Positions 2,146 through 64,000 of a DNA stretch of 64,000 bases are shown here, piece after piece. A model generated the notes under the pieces. That model was not told where the DNA came from. It saw only the letters and a list, made by a program, of their open reading frames with translations, and did no database searches. The position numbers were made by a program, and so were the translations under genes. How positions within the stretch are numbered: position 1 is the stretch's first letter; each line of letters starts with the position of its first letter. The DNA is from Candidatus Bathyarchaeia archaeon (lineage in GTDB: Archaea; Thermoproteota; Bathyarchaeia; 40CM-2-53-6): the NCBI GenBank assembly GCA_035935655.1, contig DASYWW010000037.1:1-64000 (forward strand). Direction: 5' to 3'.

Positions 2146-2604
2146 ATGGCAACGAGCAGGCCCAAGTTGGAACTGGTCGAAACGGCCACAGACAGAATTA
2201 CCATCTTGGCAGATTTTCCCTATCTGAGCCCGGCCCTGCTCTTCGACTATTGGACAAGTACTGATCTGCTCAAGAAATGGTGGCCTCCCGCGGCGGAGTT
2301 GCAGCCCAAGGTAGGCGGGGCCTATCATTTCTCCTGGCCCCAACAAGATTGGCATCTTCGGGGCAAGTTCACCATGTTCGACAGGGGGAAGGCGCTTGGC
2401 TTCACGTGGAAGTGGGACCATGAATCCGTTGACGTAACCAGGGTCACACTACTCTTCCACTCAATGCCGAACGGGGGGACAAGACTCACCCTTCATCACG
2501 AAGGCTATTCGAAGAACTCGGAAGCGAAAAAGACAAGGGATGAACACGTAGAAGGCTGGACTTTCTTCCTGAGAAAGCTCCAAGAACAAGGCCAGGAATC
2601 GTGA
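2146..2604 (+). CDS. SRPBCC/AHSA1-like protein
   Basis: A 152-residue START/Bet v1-like helix-grip protein of the activator-of-Hsp90-ATPase-homologue type. Family signs are the F-x-Y-W-T-S-x-x-L-L-K-K-W-W-P segment near residue 40, the G-G-x-Y-H-F strand and the terminal long helix beginning E-H-V-E-G-W-x-x-x-L. Such proteins bind hydrophobic ligands, and many bacterial and archaeal ones have no assigned ligand. It lies 40 bases downstream of the VOC gene, a common pairing. A 240-base gap with no visible gene follows. Confidence 0.85.
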   Translation: MATSRPKLELVETATDRITILADFPYLSPALLFDYWTSTDLLKKWWPPAAELQPKVGGAYHFSWPQQDWHLRGKFTMFDRGKALGFTWKWDHESVDVTRVTLLFHSMPNGGTRLTLHHEGYSKNSEAKKTRDEHVEGWTFFLRKLQEQGQES

Positions 2605-2846
2605 AACTCCCCCGACTAGCAAGCCCTTGCCGTAACTAGAAATTCCGAGGTATGACGGATAACACTCTCGGATCTGAGGGTCGTTGAAGCCGCCTTTGGC
2701 CTCTTCTAGAGGCTCATGATGCTGGTGCGCCCTTGTTTTGGTTGTATCAGAATCGTTTCGGCACTCTGGATGGCTGTATCAATATCGTTTCATGGAACGT
2801 ATTTCCCCTGTGACCGACAATGTACTGCTGGAGGTAGAAAATAGAA

Positions 2847-3272
2847 ATGACTCAAAAAACCGCTCTCGAATATCCGAACGTTCCCTCAATACTGGCTCTG
2901 ATAGGTGGCGCTTTGATAGTGCTGGTGGACATAATTCTCTTGACCGTCTCCATAGTGATCCTGCCACATCTCAACTATACGAATTTCACACCGCCACGAG
3001 GCTATACTGGCAGCCCAGGCAACATAGCGTCTGGATTTGTCGGCGCACTCTCAGCCTTCGGTCTGGTCTGTGGCATTATCGTCCTCTTATCGGCCATAAT
3101 GCTGCGTTTCATGCCGTCTCAACGACAGACATGGGGCATCTTCATACTGGTCTTTTCCATCCTGAGCTTCTTCGGCTTCGGGGGATTCATCGTTGGGGCC
3201 GTTCTCGGAATTGTCGGCGCAATAATGATCCTGAGATGGAAACCACCACCGCTGCCACAACCAGAGCACTAG
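2847..3272 (+). CDS. Four-segment membrane protein
   Basis: A 141-residue integral membrane protein. Predicted membrane segments lie near residues 15-38, 63-85, 93-112 and 113-132, with a short Gly/Pro-rich loop between the first two. The N-terminal Y-P-N-V-P-S-I-L-A-L-I-G-G motif and glycine-rich last segments resemble archaeal small membrane proteins of unknown function. A GGAGGT sequence precedes the ATG, though at a rather long distance. The next gene on this strand starts 72 bases downstream. Confidence 0.7.
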   Translation: MTQKTALEYPNVPSILALIGGALIVLVDIILLTVSIVILPHLNYTNFTPPRGYTGSPGNIASGFVGALSAFGLVCGIIVLLSAIMLRFMPSQRQTWGIFILVFSILSFFGFGGFIVGAVLGIVGAIMILRWKPPPLPQPEH

Positions 3273-3344
3273 AGTCGGTTGAATCCAGAACGCAGTGTGC
3301 AAACGGGATAAGAGGAACAGCAATAGGAAGGGTGAGGCGTCGAA

Positions 3345-3869
3345 TTGGAGAAGCTAAAGATCCTCCTGATAATGCTCGTATCCGCGACCGGAGGACTTGC
3401 AGTCTCCATTTACGTCCTCGCCCTATTCCTCGCTCCTACCGAGCCGCCCTTGGTGGTGCTCGGCCAGCTTCTCTCGAACGGCTTCCCAGCCACTTTTCCA
3501 TTCTTAGTACTATTCTCCTCCCTTTTGTTTCTCAGCACAGTTCTTGCAAGCATGGTCGGGGTCATCTACTTCCTAGTGCTACCCGAGATGAAGAACTATT
3601 ACGCATCAAGCAACAATGGAAAGGAGAACGCGTCGATAGTGTTGAGAACTCTCAAGCCAGAGGAGATTAGCGTTGTAAAAGTGTTGGACGCCCACGGCGG
3701 CACTTACCTGCAGAAGTACATCACGAAAGAAACAGGCTTATCACGTTTGAAGACGCACAGAGTAGTCGCAGCATTATCCGAGCGAGGCGTTGTTACTGTC
3801 GAAAAATATGAGAACACGAACCAAGTTTCACTCGTCAAATGGTTTCAAGAAGGAATGCGGCCACAATAA
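3345..3869 (+). CDS. Membrane-anchored winged-helix protein
   Basis: TTG start. Two hydrophobic segments (about residues 7-28 and 48-75) are followed by a cytoplasmic domain (about 100-170) with the layout of a MarR/ArsR-type winged helix: a helix after L-K-P-E-E-I-S-V, a recognition helix in S-R-L-K-T-H-R-V-V-A-A-L and a V-V-T-V-E-K-Y wing. Membrane-tethered wHTH proteins of this kind are common in archaea and are thought to sense envelope state. The target is unknown. It may be co-transcribed with the membrane protein just upstream. Confidence 0.75.
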   Translation: MEKLKILLIMLVSATGGLAVSIYVLALFLAPTEPPLVVLGQLLSNGFPATFPFLVLFSSLLFLSTVLASMVGVIYFLVLPEMKNYYASSNNGKENASIVLRTLKPEEISVVKVLDAHGGTYLQKYITKETGLSRLKTHRVVAALSERGVVTVEKYENTNQVSLVKWFQEGMRPQ

Positions 3870-56795: not shown

Positions 56796-58286
56796 TTATT
56801 CCTTCGAGGTCGAGCTCTTAGTATGGACATTTCTTGGTCGTTTTCTTGCAGGATCCCACCTGCGCATCACGGAAGCCAATGAGATCAGTCCAACTGCCCC
56901 AAGGCCAGCGAGGACAATATACAGAATCTTGTCCGAATTCGCTGAGGTGCTAGGAACGTGACTGGTCCCAGCGCCTTGATTGTGCGGAACGTAATTGAAC
57001 ACATCGTCGCCAGATGACGAACTCTTTCCGACTGAGTTGGTTACAAGAATATCGCAAAACTTCGATGAAGTCAATCCTGGATCCGACACGATCAGCGTGA
57101 TCTGAGTGTCATTGACAACTGTAAATCTCGGCTGAATAATGTTGCACAGGCCTACGGCAGTGGCACCTACGAAACCGCTTCCTGAGATCTTTACGAGGGT
57201 TCCGTTGCCACCCACTGCGGGGCTTACGCTTGAAACACTTGGTAGAAACGAAAACTGATCGGCGACCGCCAAGCTATTCCCTGCACTGTTTGACAATATG
57301 ATATGGCAAGTCTGGTTATTCGGAGGATCGAGCAGTTGCGGGGCAATAGTCGATATCGCAGTGTCGTTGATGATCTTGAATGGAGGCTGGGACATGCCAC
57401 AGAAGCTCACAGTGGTTACGCCCAGGAAAGAAGCACCCCTAATAGTTACGGCCGACCCCACTGGTCCTTCGGCGGGAGAGATGGAGATCGAGGTGGGAAG
57501 TGCTGATTGCACAGCGTCAGCAATGAATCCCCAGCTGACTCCATTTGTCTGAGCAATAGAAACGATTGAGCTCATCTGAGTTTTTGTGACGAGTTCATAC
57601 TCAGAAGCATCGGCAAAGATTCCAAGGAAAGAGCAGGGATTCACATTTAGACAGATTCCGCTAAACCCCGGCCCAGGGCTGAACATTCCACTACCCCCAT
57701 ATGCGAATCCGAAAATGAGGTCCTGAGGATCATTCGTGCTTATGATTGCTGACATGGAATTCGACCTTCCAGTCGCAATTGTCGGTGTTACGGCATTCGA
57801 ATCGAAAGGAGAGTATGGGTCATAACCTGCTATAGCGAACTCTTGAGTTGCCACCGTAATCCCCGAGACAGTTTCTGTGATGTAGATTGATGGATTCGAG
57901 ATAGTTCGAGTTGTAGTGGAATACCACTCTTCCATCCTCCCGCCTAAATCGTTCAATACTGATGCTCGCCTGAACCAATGGTCTAGGCCTTGAGTGCTAA
58001 GGACGCTCGTTATCATTCCGGTGTTGTTCAATAGTATTTGTAGAATGACTAGGTCCCCTGCCGGACAAACTCCTCCAGCGTGGTTTCCGCAGAGACCATT
58101 CGGGGGGGAGCAAGTGCTCGATTGTATGTTAACCGCATTACTACTCGAGGTCGAGCAAGCTGAACCTGTCCCGTCTAGTATAAGACCTCCACCTGCCCTA
58201 GCCAGCGGGATCCGTGGAGCGAGTTGCACTAGCATCATTATCAAGAAGAATAGAACAAAAAGATAGTGTCGCTGATAGTTTCGCAT
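56796..58286 (-). CDS. Exported IPT/TIG-domain surface protein
   Basis: About 496 residues from the ATG at 58286. Signal peptide, an N-terminal extracellular domain with five cysteines in its first part, two IPT/TIG immunoglobulin-like domains (S-I-S-I-S-P-A-E-G-P-V-G-S-A-V-T-I-R-G-A and S-V-S-P-A-V-G-G-N-G-T-L-V-K-I-S-G-S), a Ser-rich stalk, a C-terminal membrane helix and a basic cytoplasmic tail (R-R-W-D-P-A-R-K-R-P-R). It is thus anchored at the C-terminus and probably involved in surface adhesion. It reads in tandem with the phosphoesterase gene. Confidence 0.82.
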   Translation of the reverse strand: MRNYQRHYLFVLFFLIMMLVQLAPRIPLARAGGGLILDGTGSACSTSSSNAVNIQSSTCSPPNGLCGNHAGGVCPAGDLVILQILLNNTGMITSVLSTQGLDHWFRRASVLNDLGGRMEEWYSTTTRTISNPSIYITETVSGITVATQEFAIAGYDPYSPFDSNAVTPTIATGRSNSMSAIISTNDPQDLIFGFAYGGSGMFSPGPGFSGICLNVNPCSFLGIFADASEYELVTKTQMSSIVSIAQTNGVSWGFIADAVQSALPTSISISPAEGPVGSAVTIRGASFLGVTTVSFCGMSQPPFKIINDTAISTIAPQLLDPPNNQTCHIILSNSAGNSLAVADQFSFLPSVSSVSPAVGGNGTLVKISGSGFVGATAVGLCNIIQPRFTVVNDTQITLIVSDPGLTSSKFCDILVTNSVGKSSSSGDDVFNYVPHNQGAGTSHVPSTSANSDKILYIVLAGLGAVGLISLASVMRRWDPARKRPRNVHTKSSTSKE

Positions 58287-58372
58287 GTTCCTAACCTCTT
58301 GAACCCGAATGAGAATGAGGGGTCTGAAGAGGGTCACATGATAGTCGTTGATTGAAAACCATCAACCGGTCC

Positions 58373-59428
58373 TCACCTGAAGAATACGCCCATAGCCGAC
58401 GCACTGGTGTCGGTTGAATTGATGCCGAGAAAGCCCCAATTATCATCAAAAGTTTTCAGAGCTGAAAAATGGTTGAAGTTCAGTGTCGACTTAAAGGCGG
58501 GCTGGGTTATTGAAGAGTTACGAGAGGCCCAAACTGTGTAGATGTTTGGCCGACCGCTATTGAAAGGATCTATTTCATCGAATGTAACGAACAGGGCGGC
58601 TCTCTTGCTCTTGAAGAGAGTACTATCTAATATTTGAGGAACTAGATGTTGAAGATAGTGGTTGCCGAGTGAGACATCCCCGCTAGAGCAGTCATGCAAA
58701 TCATCGACGGTATTCGGGGTTAGAAAGGTATAGTTCGCAACATTTGTCATTGAGTTCAGATCATTTAGGAGAAGATCGTCGGTCTCAACGATCCCCGGGT
58801 CTGTTTTGCTTCCGCACGGTTGGGACTGGGAGAGAATAGTCTTGTTGGCTGGAACTATTCTCGAGCATCTGCTAGCATTATTGAGTATGTCCTGATAGTA
58901 GACGAAAGGATTGTGAATTGACGCATAGTGTCCAGAGCTTGAGGAGGACGCAATGAAGCACTTCCCTATCGGAGAGCAATTGCTACCGCAACTCGTTGGG
59001 TAGTCTTCCATGTACGCTTTCCACGTCAGATGCTTTCTTTCAATCCGGTCAACGATGTTAGCATCACCATACGGGCCGCAACCGTTTTGTCCGGGCGCAA
59101 AATTACATGTCACACTTCCATCCCCGGATGTTATGGCGATGTAATCGCCTAGACTTCCGGACACGCCTCCGGCATCGTAGTTGTCAGCGAGCCCATATGT
59201 GTCCGCGAGATAATTGAAGAAGGTACAGTTGCCAAGGCATGAACTACCGTAGGTAGTGTCTATGGCATGATTCTCAAGCATTATCACTACTACGTAGTCG
59301 AACCACATGCCGGCAAAGCCAGGTCTTGTGATCGCCACTGAATTTCTTACACTCAAGCTAGAGGCGGCTAGGGTACTCGATACCAAGATTACCGCGACAA
59401 GTATGGTTGATAGAAGTAGCGCGCGCAT
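58373..59428 (-). CDS. Secreted phosphoesterase (PF04185-type)
   Basis: A 351-residue secreted protein with signal peptide (about 1-22). V-V-V-I-M-L-E-N-H-A-I-D near residue 47 is the E-N-x-x-x-D metal site of the phosphoesterase family that includes acid phosphatase AcpA and bacterial phospholipase C. F-V-T-F-D-E near residue 290 and downstream H-F-S-A-L fit the second metal site. Ten or more cysteines suggest disulfides. Acts outside the cell on phosphate esters; the substrate is open. Confidence 0.85.
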   Translation of the reverse strand: MRALLLSTILVAVILVSSTLAASSLSVRNSVAITRPGFAGMWFDYVVVIMLENHAIDTTYGSSCLGNCTFFNYLADTYGLADNYDAGGVSGSLGDYIAITSGDGSVTCNFAPGQNGCGPYGDANIVDRIERKHLTWKAYMEDYPTSCGSNCSPIGKCFIASSSSSGHYASIHNPFVYYQDILNNASRCSRIVPANKTILSQSQPCGSKTDPGIVETDDLLLNDLNSMTNVANYTFLTPNTVDDLHDCSSGDVSLGNHYLQHLVPQILDSTLFKSKRAALFVTFDEIDPFNSGRPNIYTVWASRNSSITQPAFKSTLNFNHFSALKTFDDNWGFLGINSTDTSASAMGVFFR

Positions 59429-59600
59429 GCAAATTCGCCATTGTCTAAGTAGGTGAAATTACATTCGTGACACGGGGGTATCCGATTCCCATTCTGAGCC
59501 GTGCCCTTGCCCGTACGGAATGCATAGCCAATTTACCCCCGACCTAGAGAAAAAGATAGGTTTCGCCCGGATTGCACGGGCTCATCAGGAGGTTAGTCAG

Positions 59601-60089
59601 TTAGCTGATTGTTATGGTAAAGCTGTAGGCGTTGGCAGGAACGTTTGCACTCACTGTAAGCGTTTGGGATGAACTTGCAACACCGGAGTTCGGTATGGTC
59701 AAGGGTCCCCCTGTTATCGTTATGCTTCCTGGAGCGGGAGACGGGGTCACCGTGCCCTGAACGATCGTTACTGCTACTGGAGAATTGTTGGTGTTTTCAA
59801 TGCAGAAAAGCGCTCCTTGGGTTCCTGGAGAAGAAATGCTGCCGGAGAAAGCTGTTGCCGTTGAGTTCGTTGTCCCATCAGTATAGTGGCTAGACCCGAA
59901 AGCTGGGCATGTTCCGGCGGAAGGAATTATGTCTTGGAATATGTTCTTCGCTCCGGTCGTCACCGTAATATTGTTGCTGATTGTAAGTTGGGTTGCTGCG
60001 TACGCAACGTAAGCCACTAAGACGACTGCCATGAGCAATATCGTTCCCCTCAGGATCCTGAATTTACTTGGTGAGAATGCGATCTTCAT
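59601..60089 (-). CDS. Exported camelysin/SipW-like surface protein
   Basis: About 162 residues from the ATG at 60089. A basic N-terminus and one signal/anchor helix (R-G-T-I-L-L-M-A-V-V-L-V-A-Y-V-A-Y-A) are followed by a Thr/Ser-rich beta domain ending in Y-S-F-T-I-T-I-S. Two cysteines may pair. The layout (signal helix, A-Y-A-A-T-Q-L-T-I-S-N-N-I) resembles TasA/camelysin-like archaeal surface subunits that may form fibres. Confidence 0.65.
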   Translation of the reverse strand: MKIAFSPSKFRILRGTILLMAVVLVAYVAYAATQLTISNNITVTTGAKNIFQDIIPSAGTCPAFGSSHYTDGTTNSTATAFSGSISSPGTQGALFCIENTNNSPVAVTIVQGTVTPSPAPGSITITGGPLTIPNSGVASSSQTLTVSANVPANAYSFTITIS

Positions 60090-60389
60090 TTTTGTACTAA
60101 ACACCTCCGTTTTCGTTGCAAGGCGTTTCCGCGCCATGACGTATAAGGAGTATTGGGTGCTGCTTATCCAAAATCATTCCTTTTATCGCCAACGATTTCC
60201 GGAGCTTACCGCCAAGATTGGCGCTGATCCTCAGGAAGTCCGACAATCTTGGTGAGCAGATCTAATATCGACCGTAGTAACTTGGCACGCCTCATTGGCG
60301 TCCGGGCGACCTGCGGAAAATGTGATGGAATCTGGCTGGTATTCGCGAATGTTTAGATATGTTGCTTGGAGCTGTCACTAGGTCTCTGA

Positions 60390-61028
60390 ATGCCCGAACT
60401 CGACGAAGTAGACGCCAGGATACTGGGGATCCTTGTTGAGGATGGGCGCCGGTCTTTTCGTGAAATCGCGCGTCGGGCCGGAATTACGACCCCAACAGTT
60501 CAGACCAGAATCAAGCGTATGACGGATGAGGGTCTAATTCTAGGAGTGTCACCCATTTTCAACCCCTCGAAACTTCAGCATGGCCTAGTCTTCCAACTGT
60601 ATCTACAGGTCAATCCGGCAGAGATCGAGGAGATTGCGCGCAAGCTTGGAAAACGTTCAGAAGTGCGTGGAATATACCTCACAACGGGAGAGAACAACCT
60701 CGCTCTCCGAATCGTCGCTAGCAGTCTGGATGATTTGCAACAGTTCACGGAGACCCTTGACCGGGATTTCGGGGTTAAGCAGAACTCGAGCCAGATGATC
60801 TTGAGGATTTTCAAAGACGATCAAGCGGTCGTTGTAAGACCTGGCATGGGGATCCATCTCAAATGCGAAACCTGCAACGGACCAATTCCAGCAAAACCCT
60901 TCGTTCTAAGAGTCGCGGGTCATGAGAGATTCTTCTGCTGTCCGATGTGCCTAGAGAAGTTTCGAGAGAAGTATGAACCCAAACTGAAGGGACTGCAGCT
61001 TACTGTCGAAGCTCCGGCTCGTATCTAA
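60390..61028 (+). CDS. copT: Lrp/AsnC-type copper regulator with TRASH domain (CopT/CopR-like)
   Basis: A 212-residue regulator. An N-terminal AsnC helix-turn-helix (E-L-D-E-V-D-A-R-I-L-G-I-L, R-R-A-G-I-T-T-P-T-V) is followed by an RAM-like effector domain (about 70-150). At the C-terminus is a TRASH metal-binding domain, C-E-T-C and C-C-P-M-C near residues 163 and 188. Archaeal members control the copper-export operon. A TTTAGATATG box lies about 38 bases upstream. The gene precedes a CopA-type ATPase, as in Sulfolobus. Confidence 0.93.
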   Translation: MPELDEVDARILGILVEDGRRSFREIARRAGITTPTVQTRIKRMTDEGLILGVSPIFNPSKLQHGLVFQLYLQVNPAEIEEIARKLGKRSEVRGIYLTTGENNLALRIVASSLDDLQQFTETLDRDFGVKQNSSQMILRIFKDDQAVVVRPGMGIHLKCETCNGPIPAKPFVLRVAGHERFFCCPMCLEKFREKYEPKLKGLQLTVEAPARI

Positions 61029-61052: not shown

Positions 61053-61070
61053 GCTTTACATTTGTAAAGC
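61053..61070 (+). promoter_or_regulatory. Palindromic operator candidate before copA
   Basis: GCTTTACATTTGTAAAGC has perfect 8-bp arms around TT. It lies between the regulator's stop and the ATG at 61107. A second, shorter inverted repeat (AGCAG ... CTGCT, from about 61073) follows. Position and symmetry fit a binding site for the CopT-like regulator at the copper-ATPase promoter. Confidence 0.6.
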
Positions 61071-61106
61071 CCAGCAGTTTAGAGCTGCTTCACGCCCAGG
61101 AGAAAT

Positions 61107-61169
61107 ATGGCGAAAGATCCCGTTTGCTATCAGCAATGCACTCCACACGCTCTATGGAACATAAGTTGA
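61107..61169 (+). pseudogene. Relic N-terminus of a YHS-domain/CopA reading frame
   Basis: ATG with GGAG five bases upstream opens a frame reading M-A-K-D-P-V-C, after which it runs into unrelated codons and stops at 61169. The present CopA begins P-K-D-P-T-C-G-M, so this is the same YHS start. The frame breaks right after the first YHS cysteine, and the LAGLIDADG gene begins 21 bases beyond. It looks like the original start of copA or of a preceding YHS domain, cut by insertion. Confidence 0.55.
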
Positions 61170-61190
61170 ACCCCTCCGGGTCTTTCGGCC

Positions 61191-62114
61191 TTGGGGGAAC
61201 GAAACGTGAGACAAGTCTACCCTGTGGATAGGTGGATTTCGCTGTACGAGGGGGGTTGCTCCCTTCCGAGGATAGCGCAGCAATACCACATCGGTGCTTC
61301 GACAGTCAGACGTTCTTTGGTCCGACGCATTTCTCTCAGAGATAGAGTCTCAGCAGCGATCGCCGCTTCGACTAAGTATACAAAGAGGCCATTCTCGGGT
61401 GATCAACGCGAGGGCGCCTTCCTAGCGGGCCTGATAGAAGATTTTCATGTCCGGAAAGTTGGAAGGCTAGTTGAACTCGGCTCGTCAACAACACATCCAG
61501 CAATGATGCAACTATTCAATAGTGTTTTCAGCGCTTATGGACACCCAACCTCTTCGCCAAGCTATGAAAAACGTAACGGGTACTACAGATATTACCTCAG
61601 CGTCTATTTGCACGACAGCTTCGAACGCGTCCTGACAAAATCAATCAAAATGCCGAGTTGGATTCCTCATTCGGATGATGATCCGATTTTCGAATCTTAC
61701 CTATCTGGACTCATCGCTGCTGAGGGATGTGTAAGACTGTATGATAATCACGGCCACGCGGACGCGGTCTTGCATATTACTCTCAACAAGCGCCAGCTTC
61801 TAGAGGAATTATCGCATGTTATTGGTGGAAGCCTTTACGAAGTTACACGAGCATATCGGCTGGTTGTCTACGGAAAAGCCGCTCTCGACTTGTTGCGCCA
61901 ACTAGACTTGAGGCATGATGAGAAAGTTAGGAAATTGAGGCTTATGATAGCTCATGCGGGCGAAAGATGGACAATTGTTGAGCCACTTTGGAATGAACTG
62001 GTCAATTCAATCAAGATAGGAGTGAAGGGACCCACAGCATCTGCCAGGTTGGATTATGTTGCAAAACACGGGGCGCGCCATCCAAACGAATACGTGGGAA
62101 ACGAGAGGTCGTAG
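61191..62114 (+). CDS. LAGLIDADG endonuclease-like protein inserted before copA
   Basis: TTG start, 307 residues. An N-terminal helix-turn-helix ([16 protein letters not shown]) precedes two LAGLIDADG helices, [10 protein letters not shown] near residue 80 and [10 protein letters not shown] near 167. The first has Phe at the place of the catalytic acid, while the second keeps Glu. Cleavage may therefore be impaired or limited to nicking. It lies exactly between the relic YHS start and copA, and its stop is 2 bases before the copA start codon. Confidence 0.8.
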
Positions 62115-62116
62115 CT

Positions 62117-64000
62117 TTGCCGAAGGATCCAACCTGTGGCATGTATGTGGAAGAGGGAGGAAATGCCCTCAAAACCGCCCGTTACGGGACAACGTACTAC
62201 TTTTGCAGCGAAACCTGCCTAGTGGAGTTTCAAGCTCCAGAGAAGGCCATTGCCCGCCTAAAGCGGCTCGTGGCCCTAGGGGCATTCCTCACGGTTCCTA
62301 TCGCCGCCCTAACCTACCTCCCGATAATTTCCGACAGAGCTACCAACAACCTCGTCATGTTCTTCCTTTCTCTTCCAGTTCAGTTCGTTGTCGGATTCCG
62401 TTTCTATCGCGGAAGCTACGACGCGCTAAGATCGAGAATCGGCAACATGGACCTGTTGATCGGCCTGGGAACTTCAGCAGCCTGGATATACAGCATAATC
62501 GTAACTTTCATCCCTGGATTCTTTCCGGGTAGCGCGACTTACTTCGAGACCTCAGCTATCATTATCACACTGATCCAGACAGGGAACTTACTTGAGTACA
62601 TTACAAAGGGTAAGGCTTCGGAGGCGGTTCACAAACTGTTGAATCTGCAACCTACACTGGCCCACGTAATAAGAGATGGAGTCGAGACCCGCATACCCAT
62701 CGAAAAGGTCGAGGTCAGTGATGTTCTCGTTGTACGTCCAGGCGAAAGAGTCCCAGTTGACGGTAGGGTGGTTGACGGAAGCTCGGTCGTTGACGAGTCG
62801 ATGATTACGGGGGAGAGTCTGCCAAATGAGAAGCGAATCGGTGACGAAGTAATAGGAGCAACGATCAACAAATCCGGTCTACTGAAAATTCAGGTGACAA
62901 AGGTCGGACAAGATACTGTTCTGTCCCAGATAGCCAAGCTGGTCGAAGAGGCACAGGTTGGAAAGGCCCCGCTCCAGGGATTGGCAGACAGGGTTTCAGC
63001 ATTCTTCGTTCCCGTGGTCATACTAATCGCGGTGTCATCTTTCATGTTCTGGTATTTTCTAGCGAGAATAGGACTCGCGTTCTCACTTCTCGCGTTCGTC
63101 TCTGTAGTTATCATCGCCTGCCCCTGCGCGCTAGGAATTGCAACCCCCGCGGCTTTGCTCGTGGGGACAGGAAAGGGGGCGGAGAACGGAATCCTGATCA
63201 AGGGAGGAGACCAGCTGGAGATGGCTCACAAAGCGAACACGGTCATCTTCGACAAGACTGGAACCCTGACCAAGGGTAAGCCTGCCGTGACAGATGTTGT
63301 TCCGATCGGAAAACTTTCGGAGGCGCAGATCCTCCGCTACGCCGGGTCCGTGGAAAAGGGTAGCGAACATCCCCTAGCCCAAGCAGTTGTCGATGCCGCC
63401 CAGAAGATGAGTGTCGCCCTGTCCGATCCTTCAGATTTTGAGGCCTTGGCTGGACTCGGGGTCAGGGCTAGTGTGCAAGGACGAGAAGTATTGCTGGGCA
63501 ACACTGATCTGATGAACAAGTTTTCCGTTCCGGTAGATGGCTATGCCGGGAAGCTGACAACTCTCCAGCTTCAAGGAAAAACAGCCACTATCCTTGCCGT
63601 GGACCGGGATCCTGTTGCGATCATCGGCCTTGCTGACACGGTTAAGGAAACGGCTGCCATAGCCGTCAAGGCGTTGAAATCGATGGGGCTGGAAGTAGTG
63701 ATGCTCACGGGCGACAATGAACGAACCGCGAAAGCCATCGCCCATGACCTTGGAATTGACAATGTCATCTCCAGTGTCCGCCCAGACCAAAAGGAGGCGC
63801 GCGTCCGGAACTTCCAGGCAGAGGGCAAGAAGGTCGTAATGGTTGGAGACGGGATAAACGATGCCCCAGCGCTGGCCGCAGCGGACGTTGGGATAGCAAT
63901 CGGTAGCGGGACCGACGTGGCAAAAGAGACTGGTGGAATAATCCTCATCAAAGACGACCTGACAGATGTTCCTAAAGCCCTACTCTTGAGCAAGGCAACT
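62117..64000 (+). CDS. copA: Copper-exporting P1B-type ATPase, partial (runs off window)
   Basis: 628 codons are visible and no stop is reached. TTG start at 62117 with GAGAGG upstream, directly after the endonuclease stop. An N-terminal YHS/TRASH-like copper domain (D-P-T-C-G-M ... F-C-S-E-T-C) precedes six membrane helices. The actuator has I-T-G-E-S-L, and the ion site has C-P-C-A-L-G in helix 6. Phosphorylation site D-K-T-G-T-L-T, S-E-H-P-L-A and [10 protein letters not shown] are all present. The CPC motif and YHS domain indicate copper (or silver) export. The last two helices lie beyond 64000. Confidence 0.96.

Follow-up and report, generated by a model that had tools for sequence, protein, structure and literature searches.

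Homing endonuclease genes within host genes

In fungal mitochondria, homing endonuclease genes (HEGs) have given rise to "gene hybrids", in which a replacement C-terminus lies beside a mobile endonuclease ORF; cases are known for atp6 of Allomyces macrogynus, atp9 of Rhizopus oryzae, cox2 of Mortierella verticillata, and atp6, atp9, cox2 and nad3 of Glomus sp. (PMC3630166). Going by the openly available part of that literature, these hybrids are the closest precedent for the archaeal copA and yhs genes described here, which are their N-terminal mirror image. In both settings, an endonuclease ORF inside the host gene comes with a diverged substitute for the coding end that it displaces, the native end persists as a remnant (here the remnant occupies positions 61107–61127 and the replacement 62117–62137), and close relatives differ in carrying occupied or empty alleles. 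The fungal hybrids, as described there, involve mitochondria and a C-terminus that is duplicated and replaced, whereas the archaeal case involves chromosomes and the N-terminus together with the start codon, adds a new ribosome-binding site and start capture behind a putative metal-responsive promoter, and has one HEG family occupying two YHS gene families. No N-terminal duplication with a recreated start was found in the openly accessible papers on fungal HEGs that the search covered.

HEGs also split phage genes with retention of function, as seen for mobE in nrdA of Aeh1 and mobA in gene 60 of T4, where either the protein is split or ribosomal bypassing is relied on. The archaeal locus resembles these cases in that a free-standing HEG, not borne by a self-splicing intron, lies in a coding region and host function is kept in another way; it differs from them in that rebuilding of the short 5′ end leaves the host protein at full length. 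Archaeal intron-encoded LAGLIDADG endonucleases such as I-Tsp061I share the archaeal setting and the LAGLIDADG fold. They belong to spliced introns of RNA genes, whereas the present element appears from its sequence to be unspliced, lies in protein genes, and has an N-terminal HTH and a variant motif 1.

Organization of the copA locus

The window, which is the entire stretch of 64,000 nucleotides analysed from a Candidatus Bathyarchaeia contig, ends in a putative copper operon with the following features.

60390–61028, plus strand: gene for a CopT-like regulator (AsnC/Lrp HTH and C-terminal TRASH; Pfam HTH_AsnC-type 2.5e-16, TRASH_HVO_1752_C 5.7e-7), the upstream neighbour
61055–61069, plus strand: palindromic operator-like element TTTACATTTGTAAAG, conserved 5′ of copA
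61078–61083, plus strand: TATA-like TTTAGA box, 23 nt 5′ of the original copA start codon
61107–61127, plus strand: orphaned original copA start ATGGCGAAAGATCCCGTTTGC (MAKDPVC), 20/21 identical to the empty copA start of genome G009
61107–61169, plus strand: ORF of 20 codons that begins at the original start and extends into the element, in the HEG frame, closed by TGA 61167–61169
61128–62137, plus strand: whole insert (HEG and rebuilt copA codons 1–7) between ...GTTTGC and GGCATG..., delimited against the empty sites of G009, G014 and G005
61191–62114, plus strand: LAGLIDADG-type HEG with N-terminal HTH, 307 aa, TTG start at 61191, alternative GTG at 61206
62105–62108, plus strand: Shine-Dalgarno-like GAGG in the 3′ end of the HEG, 8 nt 5′ of the rebuilt copA start
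62117–62137, plus strand: rebuilt, recoded copA codons 1–7 TTGCCGAAGGATCCAACCTGT, 13/21 identical to the orphaned copy
62117–64000, plus strand: copA, a YHS-domain P1B-type ATPase (Pfam YHS, E1-E2_ATPase, Hydrolase), running past the window end, 715 codons in the full contig

CopA carries an N-terminal YHS domain, an E1-E2 ATPase domain and a HAD domain, all above the Pfam cut-off, and is presumably specific for copper, judging from its family and the CopT-like neighbour. Its ORF opens at TTG 62117 (PKDPTCGM...), 2 nt past the TAG stop codon of the HEG, which is where the initial annotation had placed the restart of copA. At the alternative HEG start GTG 61206, a GGGGGA motif stands 7 nt 5′ of the codon. 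An identical TTTACATTTGTAAAG with a TTTAGA box close on its 3′ side is present upstream of copA in 10 genomes, both HEG-bearing and HEG-free. The spacing from the TTTAGA box to the start codon (ATG or GTG) is 23 nt at nine of these ten loci and 22 nt at the remaining one (G013), and this TATA-like spacing, combined with general knowledge of archaeal promoters, suggests that the copA message is leaderless. Adjoining the copper operon, the minus strand of the window (56796–60137) holds a cluster of apparently secreted proteins, as judged by eye: a long protein with a C-terminal membrane anchor, a phosphoesterase-like protein (58373–59428) and a small secreted protein.

Empty sites and the displaced copA start

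The initial annotation, which placed the insertion at the codon that follows the first YHS cysteine, had proposed that an uninterrupted copA be sought in relatives. The search covered 18 genomes of the genus, which are soil Bathyarchaeia going by named records, and gave 17 readable copA starts; 13 are uninterrupted and four bear the HEG, and the empty genes agree with the proposed insertion point. Most empty sites encode MAKDP[IV]C, and that of G009 reads ATGGCGAAGGATCCCGTTTGC followed by GGCATG. The 21 bases upstream of the insert in the window match this uninterrupted G009 start at 20 positions and, as in G009, follow the TTTAGA box by 23 nt; therefore, the upstream piece is the original copA start. 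Its frame continues from MAKDPVC (61107–61127) into the element as TAT CAG... and reaches TGA 61167–61169. By comparison of the sequences, the 21 bp at the other end of the insert are a rebuilt, recoded and diverged second copy of the copA start, and the rebuilt codons of the HEG-bearing copA of G017 (TTGCCGACGGACCCAACTTGC) are related to those of the window. The event was rightly described as old at the outset. The involvement of two YHS domains, which had been considered as well, is not needed, because the second YHS start is the rebuilt copy that the element carries at its 3′ end; the relatives carry one N-terminal YHS start.

Start capture and a putative new ribosome-binding site

The HEG frame of G017 and G012 can be read without a stop from an ATG exactly 23 nt after TTTAGA, where copA begins in empty loci. 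The captured starts consist of decayed codons (MLEGSAT and MPVGPAI) followed by a shared SLPYH, and these 5′ remnants were recognized from their position and frame rather than from their sequence. With this layout, translation of the endonuclease in both genomes would begin at the copA start codon. In the window, the capture frame is broken by TGA 61167, so the endonuclease probably re-initiates at GTG 61206 or TTG 61191. Displaced from the putative leaderless start, the rebuilt copA start would depend on a ribosome-binding site; a Shine-Dalgarno-like motif (GAGG, GGAGG or AGGG) is present 7–10 nt 5′ of the rebuilt start in all six copies of the element described below, in differing HEG frames (spacings counted by eye). 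Translational coupling from the HEG to copA is plausible from this arrangement.

LAGLIDADG genes are commonly borne by introns, and excision of 61128–62137 would join GTTTGC to GGCATG in frame, as expected if the ORF belonged to an intron (group I or archaeal bulge-helix-bulge) that is removed from the copA message. This is very improbable, as an Rfam scan gave no intron family match, bulge-helix-bulge-like pairings at the junctions number 0 against about 0.5 expected by chance, and the invariant Cys is kept in 6/6 downstream copies of codons 1–7 while the upstream copies decay, as in MLEGSAT and MPVGPAI, which is the opposite of what splicing needs. An intein or an in-frame insertion domain of CopA would fit the insertion directly after the Cys codon of a conserved motif, and yet its probability is close to nil: the stop codons TGA 61167 and TAG 62112 split the parts, no splicing-domain (Hint) match was obtained, the junction is followed by a Gly residue, and the downstream part comes with its own start codon and Shine-Dalgarno motif. 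No sign of an intron or intein, which the initial annotation had named as evidence that would speak against a simple insertion, was found at the copA insertion.

Site-specific HEG family and its distant relatives

Searches of the window's own genome (G000) and related genomes revealed six same-genus copies of the HEG, two in G000 and the others spread over four further genomes. All six lie directly 5′ of a KDPxCGM (YHS) start, preceding copA in G000, G017, G012 and G010 and a small YHS gene (yhs) in G000 and G009; the insertion is site-specific, with empty and occupied alleles. The second G000 copy (contig positions 64329–65249) is found just past the window, 2.2 kb downstream, between copA and yhs. 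In relatives, yhs starts 11–12 nt after the copA stop codon, mostly behind a GAGGTG-type ribosome-binding site. At the occupied yhs loci of G000 and G009, a decayed old start (GCGCAAAAAGACC and ATGCAAAAG..., respectively, compared with GTGCAAAAAGACCCGGTCTGT in empty yhs) is followed by the HEG and then by a rebuilt start (ATGACAAAAGATCC and ATGACAAGAGATCC, respectively). At the decayed yhs start remnant of G000 (C37:64179–64264), a frameshift carries the copA frame 20 codons further, to 715 codons versus 695 in relatives. The remnant now encodes the C-terminus of CopA in G000. The HEG of G010 has lost its N-terminal part and lies beside an IS605-like end. The copA behind this truncated HEG has no in-frame ATG, GTG or TTG, and its sole candidate start is an ACG directly after the HEG stop codon, at positions 2094–2112 of the analysed piece of C21.

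An alignment-based search of genome contigs identified four named relatives, namely 'Candidatus Bathyarchaeota' MAGs BA_22, BA_24 and BA_25 and archaeon 13_1_40CM_2_52_13. A single-protein search of genome contigs with the HEG gave no matches, and a search for viral relatives found none. In G162, a profile search (E 4e-5) detected a distant relative, decayed and reduced to its C-terminal part, which runs on in frame into RNase HII at positions 2967–3640 of the analysed piece of C146, with the HEG C-terminus joined to ...LILGIDDAGRG. A remnant of the old rnhB start (ATGTTGATTGCTGGC) is present upstream in its original context aagaaggagtttccATGTTGATTGCTGGC, and empty rnhB sites in G194, G042 and others encode MLVAG/MLIAG-VDDAGRG. 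The remnant, the fusion and the empty relatives indicate that the same layout thus occurred at another conserved N-terminus.

The upstream piece is not needed for a complete downstream copA, as would be expected if the HEG simply lay in intergenic space before an ordinary copA start, the upstream MAKDPVC being due to chance or a separate small peptide. This explanation, already contradicted by the empty sites, is highly unlikely: the upstream piece matches the G009 copA start at 20 of 21 bases at the same promoter distance, equivalent remnants are found at both yhs copies and at rnhB, and a free MAKDPVC peptide without an insertion, likewise named beforehand as adverse evidence, occurs in none of the relatives examined.

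No terminal duplications were found at the distant HEGs of G535 (ferredoxin) and G416 (geranylgeranylglyceryl-phosphate-synthase-like gene). The related HEG of G535, at 1102–2166 of the analysed piece, is on the opposite strand, and its 3′ end overlaps the last codons of the ferredoxin gene. G350 contains at least five related HEG-like ORFs with a common N-terminus around VTGERVARPLQAG and recurring small neighbours, which looks like a lineage-specific expansion. In G163, a decayed HEG relative at 2400–3519 of the analysed piece of C66 is situated just 5′ of a tRNA-like sequence with one or more introns, which was not called by ARAGORN. G203, a candidate for a second rnhB case owing to its long open frame, was rejected, as it has a VapBC-like pair and no HEG. 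This VapBC-like toxin-antitoxin pair, at about 2818–2160 on the minus strand of the analysed piece of C15, lies directly 5′ of rnhB, at the border that carries the HEG remnant in G162.

The endonuclease and evidence for mobility

A Pfam search of the HEG product gave only sub-threshold matches to LAGLIDADG_3, and the sole match from a profile search of PDB sequences was a marginal one to I-AniI (E 0.84). Its AlphaFold model (mean pLDDT 70, with one of five models good) contains two LAGLIDADG core repeats with an alpha-beta-beta fold. Comparison of the predicted fold with the PDB returned 41 chains at E<=1e-3, nearly all of them LAGLIDADG endonucleases and the remainder LAGLIDADG-fold proteins; the best matches include I-AniI and, in third place, I-Tsp061I. 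Motif 2 (LSGLIAAEG) is canonical, with an invariant E178. Motif 1 is unusual, being one residue short with its acids one residue early, which makes the activity of the enzyme uncertain. The dN/dS values of about 0.14–0.20, obtained for pairs with estimable, non-saturated dS, show that the HEG is under purifying selection.

In the HEG tree, G012 groups with G010 (support 1.0), whereas the copA tree places G010 with G016/G008 (0.998) and G012 with G009/G005 (0.970); the two phylogenies conflict over G010 and G012. Within the first 150 bp of copA beside the HEG, eight sites support G000 with G017 versus three for G000 with G014, compared with 4 versus 21 beyond. With the 150-bp cut-off chosen post hoc, this clustering of sites shared by G000 and G017 has a Fisher p of 0.002, or 0.009 with the third grouping counted as conflict. 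The dS between G000 and G017 is similar for the HEG (1.03) and copA (0.99), a similarity that is as compatible with vertical descent as with transfer and that speaks against a recent transfer.

The N-terminal HTH, the lack of an acid at the usual position in motif 1, the purifying selection, the location within the copper operon and the presence of WhiA among the fold matches would all suit a domesticated HEG, which has lost homing activity and serves as an HTH-LAGLIDADG DNA-binding regulator of this operon, as bacterial WhiA does. Such domestication is nevertheless unlikely, considering that the HEG is present at only 4/17 readable copA loci and two yhs loci, that the G010 copy is truncated and that the HEG and copA trees disagree. 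The invariance of E178 in motif 2 and the related copies at rnhB and other unrelated genes also argue against it.

Proposed mechanism and biological meaning

The reading preferred here, to which we assign a high probability, is that of a free-standing, site-specific LAGLIDADG HEG that targets the starts of YHS genes, takes over the start codon and supplies a rebuilt host start. Its target would be the conserved DNA for K-D-P-x-C-G-M with which YHS-domain genes open, where the enzyme may cleave empty alleles and spread by repair-dependent homing. As the insertion lies just past the first codons, the host promoter and start codon would stay upstream and first serve the endonuclease, as the layout of G017 and G012 suggests; in the window, the captured start would have been cut off later. 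The 3′ end of the element would bring a ribosome-binding site and rebuilt, sequence-altered first codons, so that synthesis of the host protein would continue from a new start, probably one under translational coupling. The altered first codons may also shield the occupied allele from re-cleavage. Chances appear about even for a broader proposal, in which an archaeal HEG lineage would pursue a general "start-capture and rebuild" strategy at conserved 5′ codons (copA, yhs and rnhB), taking the promoter and start codon and carrying its own ribosome-binding site and a recoded 5′ end that resists cleavage. This would be a natural equivalent of a cleave-and-rescue drive, possibly under copper control.

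On the preferred reading, an unspliced selfish gene can live within a conserved host coding site by means of a start-codon swap rather than an intron, providing an N-terminal, prokaryotic counterpart of the C-terminal gene hybrids of fungal mitochondria. The shared protein motif would explain how an endonuclease can move between two otherwise unrelated genes, and the natural pairs of occupied and empty alleles are on hand for studies of cleavage and of self-protection by recoding.
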